In this document: one piece after another, positions 524-60,552 of the stretch | Position numbering within the stretch: the first letter of the stretch is position 1 | Layout of the letters: every line of letters starts with the position of its first letter | Translations under genes and position numbers: made by a program | Notes under the pieces: model-generated | What the model saw: the letters and a program-made list of their open reading frames with translations, nothing else | The model's database searches: none | What the model was told of the DNA's origin: nothing | NCBI GenBank assembly: GCA_024404025.1 | Contig: JAKSQP010000001.1 | Coordinates: 186,001-250,000 of the forward strand | Length of the DNA stretch: 64,000 nt | Reading direction: 5' to 3' | From: Clostridia bacterium | GTDB lineage: Bacteria; Bacillota; Clostridia; Oscillospirales; Acutalibacteraceae

Positions 524-2890
524 TTGGAGAAGATTTCGCCGAGAAGAAAGCTCTTTCGGAGAGCGGTTATAGTTTTTCTGATTCTTGCAGTTGTGCTTTT
601 CGGCTTCCCCGCAGCCAACCTTTTCAGAATTCAGCTTGTTGACAGCGAAAAATATAAGGGTGAGGCAGAAAAGAATCAGCTTCACGATACCGAAATCGCC
701 GCCGAGCGTGGAATCATTTACGATGCCAACGGAACGATTCTTGCGCAGAGCGCATCCGTATGGAAGGTTTACATAAAGCCGAATGCAATTGAAGACGAAG
801 CCTTCAAAACCGAGGTTTGCAGAAGACTTTCGGAAATCACCGGCGTCAGCGAAGAAAACATCAAAGACAAGGCGGATAAATCGAAATATGCTTATCTCGT
901 TGTCAAAAGGCAGATTGAATATGCCGAGAAAGAGGAAATAAATGCTCTTCTCAAGGAAAAGGCCGAGATTCCATATCAAGTAACGAATGCGGACGGTTCA
1001 ACTGTTACCAAAACGAAAAAGATTTCGTTCGGAACGGCAATCGGAATCGACCCCGATGTCAAGAGATATTATCCTTACGGCTCACTTGCTTCCGCAGTTA
1101 TCGGATTCACCGGAGCAGACGATATAGGAAGATCGGGTATCGAGCTTAAATATGACACAAGCCTTACCGGCACTCCCGGCAGGATAGTTACTGCACAAAA
1201 CGGTCTTAACGGAAAGATGGATGAGGAATATCAGACCGTTTACGATGCGGTTCAGGGCAACAGCCTTGTGCTGACGATTGATGAAGTTATTCAGCGCTAT
1301 GTTGAAGAGGATATCAAGCAGCTTTATAAAGACAGCCTCGGAGCCGGCGCTTACGGCGTTGTTATGAGCGTCAAAACGGGCGCAATTCTCGCTATGGCGT
1401 GCGAAGAGAATTTTGACCTGAACGATCCGCAGGCTCTTAAGGATGAGGTCAGGGAATACATCGAAAAGGAAGCCGAAAACGAAGAAACCGAAGAGCTTAC
1501 CGAAAACGAACTCAAGGAAATCAACGAAAAATACGGCACGGTTGAAGAAAGAGCTGCTGCAAGAAAGCAGGTCATCACAAACAAGAAGCTCTATAAGCAA
1601 TGGAGAAATTTTGTTGTCAGCGATATTTACGATCCCGGATCGGTTTTCAAAATCATAACCGCTTCGGCGGCGCTTGAAGAAAATGCTGTTACTCCGGAAT
1701 TCTCATACACCTGCTACGGCAAGATTCAGGTTGCCGACAGAACGATAAAATGCCATAACCATTCCGGCCACGGAACGCAGGACCTTGAACACGGACTTAT
1801 GAACTCCTGCAACCCGTTCTTCATAACAGTCGGTCAGAAGCTCGGAGCCGAAAAATTCTATCAGTATTTTGAGGCATTCGGTTTTACCGAGAAAACGGGG
1901 ATTGATCTTCCTGCTGAAACGATGCCGGTTGGCGGAGTTAACTACCATACTCTTGACACGATGGGAATTGTTGAGCTTTCCAGCTCGTCGTTCGGTCAGT
2001 CGTTCCAGGTTACTCCGATTCAGATGATTACGGCAATAAGCGCAATTGCAAACGGCGGCTACCTTATGAAGCCCTATGTTGTTGCAAAAGAGCTTGACCA
2101 GAACGGAAATGTTGTGAGCGAAACAAAACCGACGGTCAGAAGGCAGGTCATTTCAAAAGAAACTGCCGCAATCGTTTCAAAAATGATGGAATCCGTTGTA
2201 ACAGACGGCACGGGTAAAAATGCCTATGTTTCCGGTTACAGAGTTGCAGGCAAAACCGGAACATCGCAGAAGCTTGACAGACAGGGCCATTATGTTGCTT
2301 CGTTCGGATGCTTTGCTCCGGCAAACGATCCGGAAATTGCAGTTCTCGTTATCGTTGACGACCCCGTAACAAATATCAACGGCGGTACGATATGCACCCC
2401 CGTTGCGGCAAAAATTGTTGAAAAAACGCTCGAATATCTCAGCGTTGAAAGGCAGTATTCGGAAGATGAGCTTGCAGAGCTTGATACGGTTGCTCCGAAT
2501 GTTGTCGGAACAGAGGTAGAGGATGCAAGAGAGCTTCTTGAAAGCGAAGGCTTTACGGTTAAAACATCCGGCTCCGGCGAAAAGGTCATAACTCAGGTTC
2601 CTGCGGCAACGCAGTCTATGCAGAGCGGCGGAGTTGTTGTGCTTTATACCGAAGCAGAAGCAGAAAGACTTTTGGTGGAGGTTCCGGATTTCAGCGGAAT
2701 GACACCGAATCAGGTAAATAAATATGCTCATTCGCTCGGACTTAATGTCAAGATTTCGGGCAATGTGCTTAACAGCAGCGAGCTTGTTTCGTATGAACAG
2801 AGCATCGAAGCAGGCGAAACGGTTGAATACGGCAGAACCGTTACCGTTTACTTTATGTCAAATACGGGAGTAATCGACTACGCTGATTAA
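524..2890 (+). CDS. spoVD/ftsI: Division/sporulation class B penicillin-binding protein with two PASTA domains
   Basis: Transpeptidase that cross-links septal peptidoglycan, paired with FtsW. It has a short basic N-terminus, one membrane anchor (about residues 12-31), a PBP dimerisation domain, and a transpeptidase domain with all three catalytic motifs: SVFK with the nucleophile S373, SCN at 428-430 and KTG at 577-579. Two C-terminal PASTA repeats follow (about 655-715 and 718-780). A Glu/Lys-rich insert lies near residues 305-350. The 788-residue length fits SpoVD/PbpB. The start is TTG at 524, chosen because AAAGGA lies about nine bases upstream and the membrane anchor follows at once. It is first of a tightly packed mur operon. 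Whether it serves vegetative division or spore cortex cannot be told from sequence alone. Confidence 0.9.
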   Translation: MEKISPRRKLFRRAVIVFLILAVVLFGFPAANLFRIQLVDSEKYKGEAEKNQLHDTEIAAERGIIYDANGTILAQSASVWKVYIKPNAIEDEAFKTEVCRRLSEITGVSEENIKDKADKSKYAYLVVKRQIEYAEKEEINALLKEKAEIPYQVTNADGSTVTKTKKISFGTAIGIDPDVKRYYPYGSLASAVIGFTGADDIGRSGIELKYDTSLTGTPGRIVTAQNGLNGKMDEEYQTVYDAVQGNSLVLTIDEVIQRYVEEDIKQLYKDSLGAGAYGVVMSVKTGAILAMACEENFDLNDPQALKDEVREYIEKEAENEETEELTENELKEINEKYGTVEERAAARKQVITNKKLYKQWRNFVVSDIYDPGSVFKIITASAALEENAVTPEFSYTCYGKIQVADRTIKCHNHSGHGTQDLEHGLMNSCNPFFITVGQKLGAEKFYQYFEAFGFTEKTGIDLPAETMPVGGVNYHTLDTMGIVELSSSSFGQSFQVTPIQMITAISAIANGGYLMKPYVVAKELDQNGNVVSETKPTVRRQVISKETAAIVSKMMESVVTDGTGKNAYVSGYRVAGKTGTSQKLDRQGHYVASFGCFAPANDPEIAVLVIVDDPVTNINGGTICTPVAAKIVEKTLEYLSVERQYSEDELAELDTVAPNVVGTEVEDARELLESEGFTVKTSGSGEKVITQVPAATQSMQSGGVVVLYTEAEAERLLVEVPDFSGMTPNQVNKYAHSLGLNVKISGNVLNSSELVSYEQSIEAGETVEYGRTVTVYFMSNTGVIDYAD

Positions 2891-51847: not shown

Positions 51848-53347
51848 TTATCCGAAAATATCGGAAAGGGTGTTAAACAGCTTCGGAATATCAATCGGCT
51901 TTGCAAGGTGTCCGTTCATTCCGGCATCAAATGCGTTTTGCTTATCCTCGTCAAATGCGTTTGCCGTCATCGCAATAATCGGGATTCCGGAGGCATATTG
52001 ATTCGGAAGCGCTCTGATGGCTCTTGTTGAATCATAGCCGTTCATTCTCGGCATCTGGATATCCATCAGAATGAGGTCATACTGACCCTGCGCCGCATTC
52101 TGCATCTTTTCAACGGCAATGTCACCGTCTTCTGCGGTGTCAACAATGATTCCCTCTTCTTCAAGGATTTCCGTTGCGATTTCACGGTTAAGCTCGTTAT
52201 CTTCAACAAGAAGAATCTTCTTTCCGCTGAAATTCAAAGGAACATTTTTGGGAATCTCTTCCTTGGGTGAAACAGGCTCTGCAATGCGATATTCAAATTC
52301 CAGAACAACTGTTGTGCCGGCTCCGAGCTTGCTTTCGATTGCAATCGTGCCGCCCATCAGTTTTTCCTGCTTCGATATGATCGTGATTAAAAGGAAAATA
52401 CCGCTGAGGCTTATCGCAAGGAAAATCAAAAGAATGATAGCATTGTTTTTGACATTTCGATATAAGTGATTCGATTGCTCGCAGATTCCGATTTCATATT
52501 GTTCAAAGTCAAACAGGGTGTAAACATATTTCGTTCCGTTAACTTTGATTCTTTTGATTTCTTCGGAAGAAACGCTGAAATCTATCGGGGCTTCATTATC
52601 CGAAAGGCCGTATAATTTATCGTTGGTTGAAGAAACGATTTTGTCCCGCCTGGAGTCATAGATGAAATACATTGTGTTTTCCAGGGGCATCTTGTAGAGG
52701 ATCTTTGAAATATTGCTCCTGTTCAGCGCATTAAGAAGACGAGCGGGAGATACGCCTATCTGAACGATGCTGTCTCTGTCTGCACGCCATACCGCTGCAC
52801 ACATAATAAGCTTGCCGTCCTTTGAATTCGGGGTAAGGTCCTGGCAGATTTCAAGATTCATATTGTCCATCATGCGCTCAAAGAATGCAATCTGACCGCC
52901 GCTGTAAATGCCGTATCCGACATAATCGGGAACGGTGCTGTAAGTGATCAGACCGTTCTGGCCGAAAATGTTGATTTCATCAATATTCAGAATTGATGCC
53001 AGCTCGCAAAGCTCATCGTAATTTTTCTGAAGGTCGGGATTGTTTTCGAGAATATAGGCAACGGCTTTGGCTCTGTCAATATATTCTTCCTTCAGCGATG
53101 TTTGAAGAGCATCGTTGTCGTTATCGTTATTTTCGATCAGCTTTCCGATCTGCGAAGAAAGGACCTCCGCCGAGCTTAAGAAATGCTGTTCGGTACCTCT
53201 TACGATCACAAACTGGCAGCAGATGAACATTATGATAAAAATAGCCGCCATAGCAACAAGAAGACGAAGCTTATTCGCTTTGTTGATTTTCAGATTATAA
53301 GTTTTTTCTTTGCCGCCCCTCTACTGAAGCGCTGATTTGTTTTTCAT
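51848..53347 (-). pseudogene. Decayed hybrid sensor histidine kinase: early stop and missing kinase core
   Basis: Reading from the likely original ATG at 53347 (AAAGGGATTG upstream), codon 9 is TAG (53323-53321) and the frame then continues unbroken; the next possible start is ATG 53251. The remaining product has a membrane helix, an extracellular sensor region (about 230 residues), a second helix (AIILLIFLAISLSGIFLL) and a short linker SKQEK. It then jumps straight to LMGGTIAIESKLGAGTTVV, the last part of a HATPase_c domain. The phosphorylated-His helix and the N, G1 and most G2 boxes are absent. The C-terminal receiver domain is intact (Asp in DLILMDIQMPRMNG, Lys in AKPID). It could still make a membrane-tethered receiver, but kinase activity is lost. 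Confidence 0.8.
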
Positions 53348-53917: not shown

Positions 53918-53951
53918 GCAAAAGTGATGTGATAATCTGCAAAAGTGATGT
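53918..53951 (+). promoter_or_regulatory. Candidate LytTR operator, regulator operon
   Basis: Two identical 13-bp direct repeats, GCAAAAGTGATGT at 53918-53930 and 53939-53951, start-to-start 21 bp, ending on the -35 box. Paired direct repeats about two helical turns apart next to a promoter are typical of LytTR regulators. Near-identical, inverted copies lie at 56736-56767. Confidence 0.6.
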
Positions 53952-53979
53952 TGACTTTATTTCTTATATTGCTTATACT
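53951..53979 (+). promoter_or_regulatory. Promoter of leader peptide-GNAT-LytTR-GHKL
   Basis: TTGACT, 17 bases, TATACT. The start point is expected near 53986, giving about 20 bases before the leader-peptide ATG. Confidence 0.75.
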
Positions 53980-53998
53980 TATAGAAAAACGAAAGGAG

Positions 53999-54148
53999 GC
54001 GGACAAAATGACAATGAAATATATCGATCAGCGTGAACTTACCATAGTTATTGTTAATAATGAAGTGCCGTTTTGTCTGCGTTCTTAGGTGATTTGCAAC
54101 CGGACAAAACCGTATTTTCGGCACTTCCGTTTTCGGAGGTGTTTTTTT
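53999..54148 (+). promoter_or_regulatory. Three-state transcription attenuator with leader peptide
   Basis: Four RNA segments can pair in competing ways. 1:2, GCGGACAAAA (53999-54008) with TTTTGTCTGC (54071-54080), ten pairs including one wobble. 2:3, AAGTGCCGTTTTGTC (54063-54077) with GACAAAA (54103-54109) and CGGCACTT (54119-54126), 15 pairs around a nine-base bulge. 3:4, the terminator CACTTCC (54122-54128) with GGAGGTG (54135-54141) plus seven Ts. 2:3 excludes both others. Segment 1 lies at the leader ribosome site and start; segment 2 is the end of the leader coding region. A ribosome stalled early would free segment 2 and allow read-through; no ribosome, or one that reaches the stop, would allow termination. 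Confidence 0.65.
54008..54088 (+). CDS. 26-residue leader peptide
   Basis: ATG 54008 to TAG 54086-54088 behind a very strong ribosome site (AAAGGAGG, nine bases before). The peptide starts MTMKYIDQRELT, has a hydrophobic middle (IVIV) and ends NNEVPFCLRS. It has no signal-peptide or double-glycine leader features, so a leader peptide whose translation controls the attenuator is preferred to a secreted pheromone. Which residues cause stalling, if any, is not evident. Confidence 0.6.
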   Translation: MTMKYIDQRELTIVIVNNEVPFCLRS

Positions 54149-54165
54149 ATTTTGGAGGTATAAAA

Positions 54166-54747
54166 ATGATATTGGAAGAAAAGAAAATTATATTAAAAAA
54201 CGGCACAGAGGCGATTCTGAAAACGCCCGAAATCGAAGATGCCGAAACAATGCTTGAAAACATACGGATCTGCTCGGGCGAAACGGATTTTCTTTCTATG
54301 TATCCCGAGGATTGGTCAAAAGCAACCGTTGAAAGTGAGAAAGAGTGGATAAGACATCATCGTGAAAATAATAACACTTTGCTGATTACCTGCTTCATTG
54401 ACGGAAAAGCAGCAGGAAGCAGTGAGATAAGTTTTATGACCGGCATCAAAACATCTCACCGAGCGATATTGGGCATTGCCATACAAAAAAAATACTGGAA
54501 TATCGGCATAGGTTCTGCCATGCTTGGGGAGCTTATGAAAGCGACAGAAGAAAACGAAAAAGCCGAAATCGTTGAGCTTGAATTTGTTGAGGGAAATGAC
54601 CGGGCAAAAGCACTCTATGAAAAATTTGGACTGAAAGTTGTTTCGGTAAGTCCGAAAAAATTTAAACTTAAAGACGGAACATATCAGAATGTCGGTTATA
54701 TGCAAAAAGAAATAAGAAAGCCAAAAATAAAAAAACGGGGTGATTAA
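54166..54747 (+). CDS. GNAT-family N-acetyltransferase
   Basis: 193 residues with the acetyl-CoA site around AILGIAIQKKYWNIGIGSAM (about residues 100-119), where the Q/R-x-x-G-x-G/A consensus appears as KKYWNIGIGSA, then YEKFGLKVV. The N-terminal part resembles RimJ/RimL-type enzymes. The substrate is unknown; in this setting it could modify a toxic compound or a peptide (inference). Start ATG 54166 with GGAGGT six bases upstream. The stop is one base before the LytTR gene start, so the two are translationally coupled. Confidence 0.85.
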   Translation: MILEEKKIILKNGTEAILKTPEIEDAETMLENIRICSGETDFLSMYPEDWSKATVESEKEWIRHHRENNNTLLITCFIDGKAAGSSEISFMTGIKTSHRAILGIAIQKKYWNIGIGSAMLGELMKATEENEKAEIVELEFVEGNDRAKALYEKFGLKVVSVSPKKFKLKDGTYQNVGYMQKEIRKPKIKKRGD

Positions 54748-54748
54748 G

Positions 54749-55459
54749 ATGCACATCTGCATTTGTGATGACGATAAAAGTCAGCACGAGATAATCAAGA
54801 ACTACATAAACGGTTTTTTTCTGCTTACACAGAAGCCTGAAATCGTTTCACGGTTCAATGGTAATGATTTGATTAAAGACTGTATGTCGGGAATCAGTTA
54901 TGACATACTTTTTATGGATATTCAGCTTGATTCCATAAGCGGACTTGAGGTTGCTCAGACGGTAAGACGGCTTAATCCCAACGCCATTATCATTTTTATT
55001 TCCAACCATCCGGATTATGTCTTTGAGGCTTTCAGCGTGGAGGCTTTGCATTTTATGGTAAAGCCCATAACCGAGCTTGAATTCGAGCGGGTATTTGTCC
55101 GTGCCATAAGCAAATATAACTCGCTCCATTCCTTTCTGCCATCACGGTTTTTGAGCGACAGAGCGGTTATCTGCATCAATGACATATTGTACTGTGAGGG
55201 CTATAACCGCCATGTAATGATTTATACGGACAACGGTAAATATGAAAGTGTTGCCAAGCTCAGCGATATTTATGAAATGCTTTCCACGCACGGATTTGTA
55301 CAGACACATCAGGGTTTTGTTGTAAATATGAGCCGAATCCGCCGTTTTGATAAAGAAAGCGTAACGCTGAATAACGGCACCTCCGTTCCGGTCAGTCAGC
55401 GCAGAAGAACTCAGGCACTCAGGATATTTGATGATTATCTGAAAGGGGTTCTTTGGTGA
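54749..55459 (+). CDS. LytTR-family response regulator (AgrA-like)
   Basis: 236 residues. Receiver domain (1-120) with acidic pair CDDD near the start and phospho-acceptor D57 in LFMDIQLD, and Lys in MVKPITE. C-terminal LytTR DNA-binding domain (about 135-232) with the typical YCEGYNRHVMIYT...FVQTHQGFVVNMSRI...VPVSQRRR. It is predicted to bind the paired repeats upstream of its own operon and of the exporter operon. ATG 54749 is preferred over GTG 54740, since GGGGTGA sits just before it. Its stop overlaps the kinase start (TGATG). Confidence 0.92.
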   Translation: MHICICDDDKSQHEIIKNYINGFFLLTQKPEIVSRFNGNDLIKDCMSGISYDILFMDIQLDSISGLEVAQTVRRLNPNAIIIFISNHPDYVFEAFSVEALHFMVKPITELEFERVFVRAISKYNSLHSFLPSRFLSDRAVICINDILYCEGYNRHVMIYTDNGKYESVAKLSDIYEMLSTHGFVQTHQGFVVNMSRIRRFDKESVTLNNGTSVPVSQRRRTQALRIFDDYLKGVLW

Positions 55460-56736
55460 TGAAAGAAGCCGCAACCGCTTTATCGGGAATGTTTGAAATA
55501 TTTATTGCGTATATGCTGTTTGGCAAATTCGGGAAAGTGAAATATAAAAAATCCGTCAGCATTCCCGTTATAATCGCAGCAATGCTCCTTGAAGGCGGAA
55601 TGACTTTTATTTTCAGCATGACGCCTTATATGTCTCTGTTCTATTTCACTTCTGTGTTCCTGATAACGCTGATTTTTGATTTCGGATTTTTGAAAAAACT
55701 GCTTTTATGCTTATTGTTTCTCGCCATAACCATCGCAGCAGAAACCGTTGGTATCTATGGTGTTTGTACCGTTTCGGGCGTCTCCATAGACGAAACGAAA
55801 TCCAGCATTCAGCTGAATACGCTTTCGCTTATTATTTCGCTTTTTCTCACCTTGCTGTTTGAACAAATGATTCGAAGCGGAAAAAACCGAAAAACAAAGC
55901 TTCCTCCAGTTTTTGTAATCGGTATATCCGCACTGCCTGCGGCAAGTATGTTTGCTCTTTTCCTTTTCTTCTTTCTGATATACCGGAACGGGAATGAAGC
56001 TTATTATATTCCGACGGTGATCTGTTCCCTGCTTCTTCTTGCCGCAAATATGAGTACATTCTTTATCATCAATAAGCAGGAGGATTTTTATGAGGAAAAG
56101 GCGGAGCTTGAACAGACAAAGTCGATGCTTGAGCTTGAAAGAACACACTATTCCGAGCTGTTTGCCGCACAGGAGGAGCTGAAGCAATTCCGTCACGATT
56201 CCAAAAACCTTTACACTTCATTGATGGCTTCGCTTCGGGAAAACGGAGCGGAAAGTGCGGCGGAGCTTATAGAAAAAAGCTTTAACTTTGACGGATTGAA
56301 GAATATGGCTTATTCGGGCAATGCCGCACTTGACGCCGTGATAAGCTCAAAAATCGCACTGGCAAAAACTCAGCAGGTTGAAATCATTCCTTATGTGCGT
56401 ATAGCTTCACCGATTCGGATTGATGATATAGACATCGGAATTCTTGTGGGCAACGCCCTTGACAACGCTATTGAAGCGGCGGCAAAGCAGGAAAACCGGC
56501 AGGTACTTTTAAGCGTTATCACTTACGGTGATATGCTTTCGGTTGAGGTGAAAAATCCCATTTCCGCTGATTTTGAAATCGGCAGTTTGAAAACCACAAA
56601 AACAGATGCGGGTAATCACGGCTACGGTCTGAAAAGTATTGAGGCGATTGCGGAAAAATATTCCGGAACGCTGTCTGTTAAAGCGGAAAACGGTGAATTT
56701 ATACTTTCGGTTATTCTTTGCAATGACAAGATTTAA
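55459..56736 (+). CDS. GHKL sensor histidine kinase (AgrC-like)
   Basis: 425 residues. About six membrane helices in the first 200 residues, a coiled linker, then the phosphorylated H246 in FRHDSKNLYTS, the N-box GNALDNAIEAA (about 331-341) and the glycine-rich KTDAGNHGYGLKSIE. The polytopic sensor is the design of AgrC/ComD-type kinases that sense peptides within the membrane, but similar kinases sense antibiotics with the help of ABC exporters. Start ATG 55459 overlaps the LytTR stop. No pheromone precursor or AgrB-like protease gene is nearby. Confidence 0.9.
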   Translation: MKEAATALSGMFEIFIAYMLFGKFGKVKYKKSVSIPVIIAAMLLEGGMTFIFSMTPYMSLFYFTSVFLITLIFDFGFLKKLLLCLLFLAITIAAETVGIYGVCTVSGVSIDETKSSIQLNTLSLIISLFLTLLFEQMIRSGKNRKTKLPPVFVIGISALPAASMFALFLFFFLIYRNGNEAYYIPTVICSLLLLAANMSTFFIINKQEDFYEEKAELEQTKSMLELERTHYSELFAAQEELKQFRHDSKNLYTSLMASLRENGAESAAELIEKSFNFDGLKNMAYSGNAALDAVISSKIALAKTQQVEIIPYVRIASPIRIDDIDIGILVGNALDNAIEAAAKQENRQVLLSVITYGDMLSVEVKNPISADFEIGSLKTTKTDAGNHGYGLKSIEAIAEKYSGTLSVKAENGEFILSVILCNDKI

Positions 56737-56836: not shown

Positions 56837-56866
56837 ATCCCATATACTTTAACAGGAGGAAAACAG

Positions 56867-58678
56867 ATGTCAAAAAACAAAGACAAAAAATACGGCGTTA
56901 TCAGTAATCTTAAATTCATGATAAAAGAGCATAACGCCTATGACAAAAGGTTTATTCCGTGTGATATTGCTTCGGCACCGCTTGCGGCAATAACCTCGGT
57001 TATTACAGCCTATCTGCCTAAATTCGTGCTTGACTGCCTCGAAAATGACAAATCACCAAGTTTTATGGTTACGGTGATAGCTCTTCTCTCGGTTGTAATA
57101 ATCGTTTTCGGTTATGCACAGTTCTTTTTATCGCAGTATTATTTTCGCAATTTCAGAGAAATGAACAATGTATGGTTTTATTCCCGCATCAACAAAAAGC
57201 TTATGAATATGGAGTATATGAAATACATCAGCGGCGAAACAAGAGTAAAGCGTGAAAAGGCGTGGACTGCCCTTGAAAGCTGGGAGGACGGAATCTGCGG
57301 TTATGTGACAAGAGCAGTTGAGATTTTATCATCGCTGTTCGGTTTTACGGCTTTCACGGCAATCATCGTTCAGGCCTCGTGGTTATTCATTCCCGTGCTT
57401 ATTGTAAGCTATGGTCTGAGTATGGTCGGTTGGCTCCTTTTGCAGAAATACAAGGATAAGCTGAAGGATGAACGCAGCGCAGTCAAACTTAAGCTCGGTT
57501 ATGTTACCTACAATTCAAAGGATTTTACCTCGGCAAAGGATATCCGTGTTTACGGCATGACGGATTTTATTATGAGCAAAATTAACCGCCATGTTGCCGA
57601 TATCACCGATATCAACAGGCGTGTCAACGTCGGTCACATTTCAAATACCGTTTTGGAGGATGTTCTGAAATTTGCCATAGGCATTGCGGCTTATGTGTAT
57701 CTTGTTAAGCTGAAAATAAGCAGTTCAATGACGATTGGTGATTTTTCGCTTTATTTCGGAGCGATAACGGGCTTCGGAATGTGGCTTGCAAAGCTTGTTG
57801 ACGGAATATCAACATTCATAGAGGCTGACCATAAGGTGAACGATTTCAGAAATTTTCTTGATATTTCCGAAGAGCCTGAAACCGAAAATCCCGTTCCCGT
57901 GCCGACGGGTGAATGTGAAATTGAGCTTAAAGATGTGAGCTTTGCCTATGAGGAGCAGGAAAAGGATACGCTGAACAATGTATCTTTGAAAATCGGAAAA
58001 GGTGAAAAAATAGCGATAGTCGGCGTGAACGGAGCAGGAAAATCAACGCTTGTAAAACTGATTTGCGGACTTTTAAAACCCAAAAGCGGCGAAATACTCG
58101 TAAACGGCGTGAACATATCCGACTATGACAGAAATGACTATTATTCTCTCCTTTCAACCGTATTTCAGGAGGCTTCGATTCTGCCGTCAAGCATCGCAAA
58201 GAATATTGCTCTATGTGAGGAATCGGAGATCGACCGTGACCGCCTTTTTGAATGTATGCGTCTTTCGGGTATCCTTGAAAAAGTGAATTCTCTGCCGCAA
58301 AAGGAAAACACCCTGCTTGTGCGTGAGGTGCACGAGGGAGGAATTGCGCTTTCCGGCGGTGAAACACAGCGTTTGCTGCTTGCGAGAGCACTTTATAAAA
58401 ACTCGCCGATACTCATTCTTGATGAGCCGACGGCAGCTCTTGACCCCATAGCCGAAAACGATATGTATATGAAATACGGTGAATTCTGCACGGGCAAAAC
58501 TGCGATTTATATTTCTCACCGTCTTTCCTCAACACGATTCTGCGACAGAATTTATCTTTTGGGCGACGGCAGAATTATTGAGGAAGGTACTCACGAAGAA
58601 CTGCTTTCACTCGGCGGAAGATACGCCGAAATGTTTAATACACAAAGCCGCTACTACAAAGAGGAGGCGATATTTTGA
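56867..58678 (+). CDS. ABC exporter half-transporter A
   Basis: 603 residues: N-terminal six-helix type IV (exporter) membrane domain, then an ATPase domain. Walker A GVNGAGKST at about 386-394, Q-loop FQEASILP, signature LSGGETQRLLLARAL at about 495, Walker B PILILDEPTAALDP, and H-loop SHRLSS. There is no C39 peptidase domain, so it is not a self-processing bacteriocin exporter. AGGAGG precedes ATG 56867. It overlaps the next gene by four bases and probably forms a heterodimer with it. The substrate is unknown; self-protection or peptide export is plausible from the linked sensor kinase. Confidence 0.88.
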   Translation: MSKNKDKKYGVISNLKFMIKEHNAYDKRFIPCDIASAPLAAITSVITAYLPKFVLDCLENDKSPSFMVTVIALLSVVIIVFGYAQFFLSQYYFRNFREMNNVWFYSRINKKLMNMEYMKYISGETRVKREKAWTALESWEDGICGYVTRAVEILSSLFGFTAFTAIIVQASWLFIPVLIVSYGLSMVGWLLLQKYKDKLKDERSAVKLKLGYVTYNSKDFTSAKDIRVYGMTDFIMSKINRHVADITDINRRVNVGHISNTVLEDVLKFAIGIAAYVYLVKLKISSSMTIGDFSLYFGAITGFGMWLAKLVDGISTFIEADHKVNDFRNFLDISEEPETENPVPVPTGECEIELKDVSFAYEEQEKDTLNNVSLKIGKGEKIAIVGVNGAGKSTLVKLICGLLKPKSGEILVNGVNISDYDRNDYYSLLSTVFQEASILPSSIAKNIALCEESEIDRDRLFECMRLSGILEKVNSLPQKENTLLVREVHEGGIALSGGETQRLLLARALYKNSPILILDEPTAALDPIAENDMYMKYGEFCTGKTAIYISHRLSSTRFCDRIYLLGDGRIIEEGTHEELLSLGGRYAEMFNTQSRYYKEEAIF

Positions 58679-60552
58679 AAGAAAAGTTTATAGCCTTAAA
58701 GAATGATATTTCGGTTATTCTCAAAAGCTTAGGTTTGATAAATGATTATCTCGGCAATCATTATCTGCTGATAAATACCGTGCAGATGACGCTTCGCACT
58801 GTTGCGCCGTATATCACCGTTTACTGCACAGGACTTGTAATAACTGCGTTGACTCAAGGCAAAGAATTTTCGGTAATACTTCGATATGTGCTGATTGCAT
58901 CATTTTCAACTCTCATAAGCGATCTTATAATGCGTTGGATGAATTTTTACAGACTCACAATGCTCAATTCCTGCTACTACAAGCATTGTGCCGTGCTTTC
59001 ACGAAAAGCACTTTCGCTTGACTACGCCAAGGCGGAAAGCTCGTCCGTTCAGACGCTTCGGGGAAAAATTGAAGAAACGGCTAATCACGGCGACGGAATA
59101 GCGTGGGTTGCCGATATGGCGGCGCAGATAATCGCAAATGCCGCATCCATTGTCATTGCAATTATTATGGTGTCGGGAATGGCTTTCGGCAGAGCAACGA
59201 AGTCTCTAAGTGGAGCGATGAAATTTGCTGATACGCCTTATTTTACCGCTCTGCTTGCGGTGATAACCGTTTTGTGCATTTCGCTCACGGTTAAATATCA
59301 AAGCATTGCTGAAAAGAAAAACTTTAAAAGCTATAATTCCGTCAAATGCTGGCCTCTTAAAGAACATTACGATAAAAAATATCTCAACGAAACCGACTGC
59401 GGCAAGGATGTGAGAATATATAACGAAGCGCCGCTGCTCAACGAAGAGCTGAAAACCAAAGTTTATGAGCCGATCACCCGTAATGTCAAAGAACGCTTTA
59501 AAATCTGGGCAACCTACGGCAGCGTTACCGGGATTATTTCAAATGTGCTCGGCGGTACGGTTTATATTTTTGTGGGGTTAAAGGCTTTTACGGGAGCATT
59601 TGGTGCAGGCAAAGTCGTTGAATACTACGGCGCAATAACAAAGCTCATAAATTCCTGCTCTGATATTGCGGGCTGTTTCGGTTATCTGAGGGCAAACTGT
59701 CCGCAGATGAAGCAGGAGCTTGAATACCTTGCACTTACCTCCGATATGGAAAACGGCACAAGAAAAGCGGACGAAATCGACACGGATAACCTTGAATTTG
59801 AATTTCACAATGTCAGCTTCCGCTATCCCGAAACCGAGCCGCTTGTGCTGAAAAATATTTCTCTTAAAATAACTCAGGGTGAACACCTTGCTGTTGTCGG
59901 CATGAATGGCAGCGGTAAATCTACAATGATAAAGCTGCTTGCCCGTCTGTATGACCCGAATGAAGGTTATATCACCGTCAACGGAATCGACATCCGTGAG
60001 TTTGACTACACAGAATACCTGAAGCTGTTTTCGATCGTTTTTCAGGATTTCAAGCTGCTTGCGTTTTCGGTGGGTGAGAATATCGCCTGCTCTGAAGAAT
60101 ATGATGAGCAAAAGGTATGGAACTGCCTTAAAATGTCGGGAGCGTATGACAGAGTTAAGGAATTCCCGAACGGACTCAAACAGTCAATTTACAAGCTCTA
60201 TGAAAAAGACGGTGTTGATTTGTCCGGCGGTGAAGAACAAAAGCTTGCCATTGCAAGAGCTTTGTATAAAGACGGAGCTTTTGTGGTACTTGACGAACCG
60301 ACAGCGGCACTTGATCCCATTGCCGAAAGTGAGATTTATTCAAAATTCAATGAAATCGTCGGCAGTAAAACCGCTGTCTATATCTCACACCGTTTATCTT
60401 CCTGCCGCTTCTGCTCACGCATAATCGTTTTTGATAAGGGAGAAATCATTCAACAGGGCACTCATGAAGAACTGCTCGCACAGCCTGATGGTAAATACTA
60501 TAAATTATGGAACGCCCAGGCACAGTATTATAACGAAAAAACAACGGCATAA
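58675..60552 (+). CDS. ABC exporter half-transporter B
   Basis: 625 residues with the same plan: six-helix membrane domain with a longer loop near residues 165-190, then ATPase with Walker A GMNGSGKST (about 409-417), Q-loop FQDFKLLAFS, signature LSGGEEQKLAIARAL, Walker B AFVVLDEPTAALDP and H-loop SHRLSS. Both nucleotide sites look complete in sequence. The start is TTG 58675 inside the end of the partner gene, with GAGGAGG upstream, so the partners are made in equal amounts. Last gene of element A before the second att core. Confidence 0.88.
   Translation: MKEKFIALKNDISVILKSLGLINDYLGNHYLLINTVQMTLRTVAPYITVYCTGLVITALTQGKEFSVILRYVLIASFSTLISDLIMRWMNFYRLTMLNSCYYKHCAVLSRKALSLDYAKAESSSVQTLRGKIEETANHGDGIAWVADMAAQIIANAASIVIAIIMVSGMAFGRATKSLSGAMKFADTPYFTALLAVITVLCISLTVKYQSIAEKKNFKSYNSVKCWPLKEHYDKKYLNETDCGKDVRIYNEAPLLNEELKTKVYEPITRNVKERFKIWATYGSVTGIISNVLGGTVYIFVGLKAFTGAFGAGKVVEYYGAITKLINSCSDIAGCFGYLRANCPQMKQELEYLALTSDMENGTRKADEIDTDNLEFEFHNVSFRYPETEPLVLKNISLKITQGEHLAVVGMNGSGKSTMIKLLARLYDPNEGYITVNGIDIREFDYTEYLKLFSIVFQDFKLLAFSVGENIACSEEYDEQKVWNCLKMSGAYDRVKEFPNGLKQSIYKLYEKDGVDLSGGEEQKLAIARALYKDGAFVVLDEPTAALDPIAESEIYSKFNEIVGSKTAVYISHRLSSCRFCSRIIVFDKGEIIQQGTHEELLAQPDGKYYKLWNAQAQYYNEKTTA

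Follow-up and report, generated by a model that had tools for sequence, protein, structure and literature searches.

A leader ORF and terminator element in front of a GNAT-LytTR-GHKL-ABC operon belongs to a family of probable ribosome-controlled attenuators in gut Clostridia

The operon and its leader region

The window, i.e. the whole 64,000 bp stretch analysed (positions 186,001-250,000 of contig JAKSQP010000001.1, GenBank assembly GCA_024404025.1, a Clostridia bacterium of the family Acutalibacteraceae), was found to carry a forward-strand operon that begins with a gene for a GNAT acetyltransferase (54166-54747, 193 aa; PF00583, 1.3e-14). It is followed by genes for a LytTR response regulator (54749-55459, 236 aa; PF04397, 4.5e-19, and PF00072, 1.4e-13), a GHKL sensor kinase (55459-56736, 425 aa; PF14501, 1.6e-22) and the two halves of an ABC exporter (56864-58678, PF00005, 4.6e-33, and 58675-60552, PF00005, 2.1e-28). 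Homologues of the first half, 57% identical, occupy the same place of the operon in six genomes, and those of the second half in six genomes are about 65% identical.

Upstream of the GNAT gene, and on the same strand, lies a leader element spanning 53988-54149. It is preceded by a sigma-70 promoter (TTGACT-17-TATACT, 53951-53979), matched in most relatives by a similar promoter in the corresponding position, and by two direct repeats of GCAAAAGTGATG (53918-53929 and 53939-53950) with a 21-bp period, which constitute a candidate LytTR operator. An earlier note on this DNA had described a 26-codon leader frame with a very strong ribosome site, and both are present: the ribosome-binding site is AAAGGAGG (53992-53999), conserved as AAAGGMRGG across the leader family described below, and the ORF (54008-54088) encodes MTMKYIDQRELTIVIVNNEVPFCLRS from an ATG at 54008-54010 to a TAG at 54086-54088, in a frame that is kept in relatives. 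An intrinsic terminator, GGCACTTCCG-TTTT-CGGAGGTGTT followed by a U-run (54120-54148), lies between this ORF and the GNAT gene.

The flanking genes are on the reverse strand. The ORF at 51848-53251 has a sensor-like N-terminus joined straight to the apparent end of a kinase ATPase domain and to a receiver domain, the latter being its sole Pfam match, and looks like a hybrid kinase without its catalytic core. Directly behind the operon, the segment 60779-63414 contains a DUF6414 gene, a Mob/Pre relaxase-like ORF (no match in Pfam) and a small HTH-like ORF, and is possibly a mobilisable element.

Three competing helices

Segment 1 (GGCGGACAAAATG, 53998-54010) covers the leader ribosome site and start codon. 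Segment 2 (54063-54080) can pair with segment 1 through 54071-54080 or with segment 3 through 54063-54077. Segment 3b is the 5' arm of the terminator, and segment 3a (GACAAAAC, 54103-54110), a copy of segment 1, lengthens the antiterminator; its counterpart in leader L006 is the segment 1-like copy GGGCAGG. The resulting helices are the anti-antiterminator 1:2 (53999-54008 with 54071-54080, ten pairs including one G-U), the antiterminator 2:3 (54063-54069 with 54120-54126 and 54070-54077 with 54103-54110, 15 pairs, with AAGTGCC contacting GGCACTT) and the terminator 3:4 (stem 54120-54129/54134-54143, ten pairs, after which the T-run reaches 54148). The three mutually exclusive structures proposed earlier are real at the places named, within a base or two. 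Helix 1:2 was found at the same coordinates; the fifteen pairs of helix 2:3 stood, with the bounds of segment 3 shifted to 54103-54110 and 54120-54126, and the terminator and its T-run were recovered with stem bounds of 54120-54143 rather than 54122-54141.

In 2000 approximately dinucleotide-preserving shuffles the energies of helices 1:2, 2:3 and 3:4 were matched singly by 1, 14 and 0 sequences, respectively, and jointly by none. The minimum free energy of the window segment is -44.5 kcal/mol (z -2.6), and its terminator is strong by itself (-14.2 kcal/mol).

The leader family and its spread

Comparison of the window leader DNA with the genus gave partial matches elsewhere, several of which are other leaders in front of other genes. 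A degenerate pattern located leaders in 15 of 45 genus genomes, with a few chance matches among them, and the reversed pattern located none. Applied to an 84,980-species collection, pattern scanning returned 67 stretches, most of them leaders that belong to gut Clostridia of ruminants, deer, horse and comparable hosts; about a dozen were dropped as chance matches within coding genes. Because the first pattern contained ATGACAATG, a second one without it was run on 398 genomes of the bacterial family, and gave 31 matches in 22 genomes and 9 genera, in which codons 2-3 vary. Altogether 82 unique leaders, chiefly from gut Clostridia, were collected.

A covariance model, R1, used with a cut-off of E 1e-3 and with weak matches counted, matched in 24 of 45 genus genomes, 11 of 197 at order level (about 5%) and 5 of 291 at class level, the window's own genome being counted in each, and at phylum level in 1 of 199, which is the window's own genome. 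The E-values of R1 overstate, because several weak matches proved false on reading: L186, L189, L203, L205 and L209 were read as ordinary terminators or coding sequence, at a fixed offset with which a match may have been missed in L186 and L205, which are near contig ends. L174 and L207, also near contig ends, were left out of this reading.

No Rfam family reached its gathering score in the window, where Phe_leader scored below threshold (26.7 of 55 bits), and the leaders of six relatives gave chance-level Rfam matches only. The openly licensed literature, searched for attenuating leaders of GNAT, LytTR or Clostridia genes, yielded no description of the family. The leader pattern was not matched in viral contigs, and a reading of the leaders as phage cargo was set aside. 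The RNA family, its GNAT targets and its coupling to LytTR genes look new; the proposed mechanism is of a known kind.

By-eye comparison of L021, L035 and L039 revealed a similar non-coding stretch of about 160 nt that separates the terminator from the gene, with different genes after it; the leader cassette is possibly mobile. A separate leader class, with GGACACAAT or GGACTCAAT as segment 1, occurs before similar large proteins (L003, L007, L008, L181, L182 and L184). The L003 protein has an ABC transporter membrane domain, and three such domains were present in the Pfam scan of downstream genes.

Genes behind the leaders

GNATs (PF00583) account for 35 of the 58 distinct downstream proteins, with relatives counted individually, against a background of 15 in the window's whole genome (about 0.7% of roughly 2000 genes, a number estimated from 2.23 Mb). 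These GNATs include several groups without BLAST similarity to each other. Outside the bacterial family, a GNAT-fold gene stands behind seven of eight readable leaders, assigned by Pfam for L197, L198, L199, L202 and L204 and by likeness to L198 and L204 for L206 and L208, and the L200 leader precedes a P-loop ATPase. Further downstream genes within the bacterial family encode histidine phosphatases, GrpB, DUF4037, phosphorylase and ABC proteins. None of ten proteins scanned against NCBIfam, GNATs included, reached the cut-off of a known resistance enzyme, and the first downstream genes scanned included no recognisable ABC-F gene. The earlier note had presented the element as the attenuator of a GNAT-LytTR-GHKL operon; the attenuator reading held up, and the specific tie to LytTR did not, the leader family mostly preceding GNAT genes.

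Co-variation across relatives

Alignment tests were carried out on 39 representative leaders. In helix 1:2 and the terminator taken together, 98.3% of the cells are paired, and shifting one side by one to three columns lowers this value to 46-53%. Both partners have changed in 57 cells, compared with 14.6 in shuffles, and such changes affect nine pairs. Over the family terminator, 8 of 11 pairs changed on both sides. Helix 1:2, which involves the spacer of the ribosome site and the ATG, is 99% paired and shows an A-U to C-G change, and in class C segment 1 has changed in step with its partner (GGACACAAT with GTTGTG). Unguided RNAalifold recovered helix 1:2 and the terminator.

For the antiterminator, pairing in this alignment reaches 78%, and sliding reduces it to 34-49%. 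Its MAFFT columns are slightly misaligned in classes B-D, for which the duplex test is the better evidence: leaders paired with their own terminator arm at a mean of -15.0 kcal/mol, and with the arms of other classes at -9.5 kcal/mol. Partners that changed together are CGGAGAGCC with GGCATCTCCG, CGAAGTGCC with GGCATCTTCG and AAATCAGA with TCTGATTT, and those of L208 are GATGAAATCG with CGATTTCATC. On this comparative evidence the antiterminator varies in step with the terminator arm, and the mutual exclusion of antiterminator and terminator is conserved by co-variation. The compensatory changes that the earlier note had proposed to look for in homologous leaders are present. It had also held that homologues keeping the genes and losing the leader or its pairing would speak against an attenuator; six other genomes keep LytTR-GHKL-ABC genes together with a leader of this kind, with pairing segments that have diverged together.

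Leader frame and early codons

The canonical segment 2 lies 34, 37, 40, 46, 52 or 73 nt from the ATG and falls in one frame in 72 of 72 leaders; judged from these spacings, the leader frame survives changes of length. The window leader departs from most relatives in the frame in which its segment 2 is read; it is nevertheless open and stops right after segment 2. Leader lengths are mostly 16-26 codons, with a maximum of 41, and the start codon is ATG in 81 of 82. If the leader ORF were incidental, the element could be a plain terminator that separates promoter from operon, which would accord with the strength of the window terminator in isolation. Such a terminator needs neither an ORF nor an antiterminator, so the conserved frame and ribosome site and the co-variation of three exclusive helices make this explanation extremely improbable.

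What is conserved is the ribosome site, the start codon and the spacing, not the peptide sequence. Thr occupies codon 2 in 69 of the 82 leaders, it occurs somewhere in codons 2-5 in 70 of 82, and Thr or Met is frequent there, as would be expected of an amino-acid attenuator in which early codons, chiefly the Thr codon ACA at position 2, stall ribosomes when aminoacyl-tRNA is short. However, no residue is common to codons 2-5 of all 82 leaders (leaders without early Thr include those that begin MMKRIYLV, MKRKVLIK and MPKYISMK), runs of one residue are absent, and the downstream genes are not amino-acid genes. The excess of MTM is moreover owed in part to search patterns that contained ATGACAATG; with the pattern lacking it, MT was still found at codons 1-2 in most loci among the matches listed. 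Amino-acid sensing was ruled out as a general explanation on the absence of a common early residue, and we regard an amino-acid attenuator as improbable. With no such shared residue, the likely trigger is early stalling itself, for example by antibiotics that stall ribosomes on start codons.

Leaders before LytTR-only genes (L004, L006, L187 and L188) differ from the GNAT leaders in a shared peptide start that carries YSD or YSE around residue 4; a constraint at the peptide level is possible in this subgroup.

Modelled effect of ribosome position

The hold of the leader on the terminator 5' arm was modelled for the moment when synthesis of the 3' arm is about to begin, and the ribosome was taken to mask 31 nt. 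In the 47 leaders that have 18 codons, the modelled hold stands at about 12 kcal/mol while the ribosome occupies codons 1-3, declines to 10 at codon 4 and to 6.5 at codon 5, and stays at about 3 from codon 6 to 15, compared with 3.6 without a ribosome. For the window leader it is 7.4-8.5 kcal/mol at codons 1-6 versus 4.0 without a ribosome, a weaker modelled switch than in the relatives. From these holds it is predicted that early stalling favours read-through most and that a leader without translation terminates. A ribosome on the stop codon gave an intermediate hold (7.7 kcal/mol in the 18-codon leaders, 7.4 in the window), a model result that counts against the attenuator explanation.

A fully transcribed window terminator is energetically favoured over the antiterminator in each of the ribosome states tested, so the antiterminator could work only kinetically, by forming first. 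Kinetic switching is usual for attenuators.

The leader might instead report the general rate of initiation or translation, with nutrients, initiation factors or (p)ppGpp setting the dwell of ribosomes on the leader start and no drug-specific signal involved. The conservation of ribosome site, start codon and spacing rather than peptide would suit such a sensor, as would the additional dependence of vmlR expression on (p)ppGpp (PMC9226507). The targets, however, are GNATs, LytTR systems and ABC exporters, not growth genes, and the model predicts that an empty leader terminates; we consider a rate sensor unlikely.

The LytTR operon and its candidate operator

Synteny of the operon extends to six genus genomes. 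The order leader-GNAT-LytTR-GHKL-ABC-ABC was found in three of them, where the GNAT is a different one and the leader is of class B; the other three have leader-LytTR-GHKL-ABC-ABC without the GNAT. A LytTR-only gene follows the leader at four more loci (L004, L006, L187 and L188; by Pfam for L006 and L187), and G016 and G017 carry homologous LytTR-GHKL pairs in a different setting, without leader and ABC genes. At L147 a second homologue of the window GNAT, 62% identical (1476-2279, reverse strand), sits at the 3' end of a related ABC operon, which suggests that GNAT genes move around this operon.

The repeat CACTTTTGN-N10-13-CACTTTTGC has 11 matches in the 45 genus genomes, all 11 with the 21-bp period and all 11 followed by a leader at a distance of 45-65 bp, against a single match for the reversed control pattern. 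Seven of the eight genomes carrying the repeats have a leader-linked LytTR regulator. The window repeats are in reverse orientation relative to those of the relatives and abut the -35 element, from which the relatives' repeats lie further away. If bound by LytTR proteins, this candidate operator probably adds a second layer of control, namely autoregulation by the operon's own response regulator.

Proposed mechanism and its meaning

The retention of the leader before the operon in six genomes and the co-variation of its three helices support the leader-attenuator interpretation. We consider it likely that the element is a ribosome-controlled transcription attenuator opened by early stalling in the leader, most likely by inhibitors that stall ribosomes at the start codon. 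When the leader is freely translated or untranslated, segment 2 would be covered by ribosomes or paired with segment 1, the terminator would form and transcription would stop near 54148. A ribosome stalled on the start codon, or no further than about codon four to six, would cover segment 1 and leave segment 2 free to catch the terminator 5' arm before the 3' arm is made, giving read-through into the GNAT, LytTR, GHKL and ABC genes. Inhibitors that stall ribosomes at or just past the start codon would be the most likely signals, and we infer an antibiotic-like trigger, with the GNATs as presumed detoxifying enzymes; the leader family may then be an inducible defence against ribosome inhibitors. 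Points against this explanation are the equilibrium advantage of the window terminator, the intermediate hold at the stop codon, the deviating frame of the window's segment 2 with its weaker modelled switch, and the lack of known resistance enzymes among the ten proteins scanned.

More tentatively, the leaders could define a dedicated, horizontally shared stress regulon of gut Clostridia, in which one stall-sensing cassette switches on many unrelated GNATs that inactivate translation inhibitors. In some species a LytTR/ABC operon under the same ribosome check would control the same promoters and thereby integrate export signalling with the state of the ribosome; we hold this broader picture to be possible rather than probable.

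Should the trigger be as proposed, the leader would mark a set of inducible genes, for the most part uncharacterised GNATs with ribosome inhibitors as their probable substrates, and R1 would provide a sequence handle on candidate inducible resistance genes in metagenomes. The hosts are gut bacteria of ruminants and horses that are genetically hard to study. The operon would also be a rare case of a LytTR two-component system gated by ribosome stalling.

Comparison with known systems

The earlier note had invoked trp-type and tet/erm-type logic; the closest type is that of vmlR, with an anti-antiterminator over the leader start. In Bacillus subtilis vmlR, a drug-stalled ribosome lets the antiterminator form, and intrinsic termination is prevented (PMC9226507). 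Both vmlR and the present leaders have a short leader ORF within the anti-antiterminator helix and a stalled ribosome that leads, or here would lead, to the antiterminator. In contrast, vmlR has a 3-codon leader and an ABC-F target, whereas the leaders described here have mostly 16-26 codons and precede GNATs and a LytTR/GHKL/ABC operon, the likeness being one of logic. The present leaders are also conserved in sequence as a family. Trp-type attenuators likewise have three exclusive helices and depend on ribosome position; however, control codons for one amino acid are absent here, and a stall that causes read-through must sit at the very start of the leader.

The Escherichia coli gene yjhQ encodes a GNAT. 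It lies downstream of the uORF toiL, which precedes topAI-yjhQ and senses several ribosome inhibitors, tetracycline and retapamulin stalling ribosomes at its start codon (PMC12121999). The same paper gives start-codon stalling as the probable way in which lincosamides, streptogramin A and pleuromutilins act on the vmlR leader and the related cplR and vga(A) leaders. Stalling on toiL exposes a ribosome-binding site and lifts Rho termination, whereas the present leaders have an intrinsic terminator with its own antiterminator.

Published LytTR operators consist of two direct repeats with 9-12-9 spacing upstream of the -35 element (PMC6193735). The arrangement found here resembles these systems in its 9-12-9 repeats upstream of the -35 element, in the presumed autoregulation, as known from LytTR operons, and, at L006/L153, in a LytTR-only gene with a small ORF after it (PMC6193735). 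It differs in the repeat core, CACTTTTGC instead of ACCNCTTAT, and in the combination of the repeats with an attenuator.
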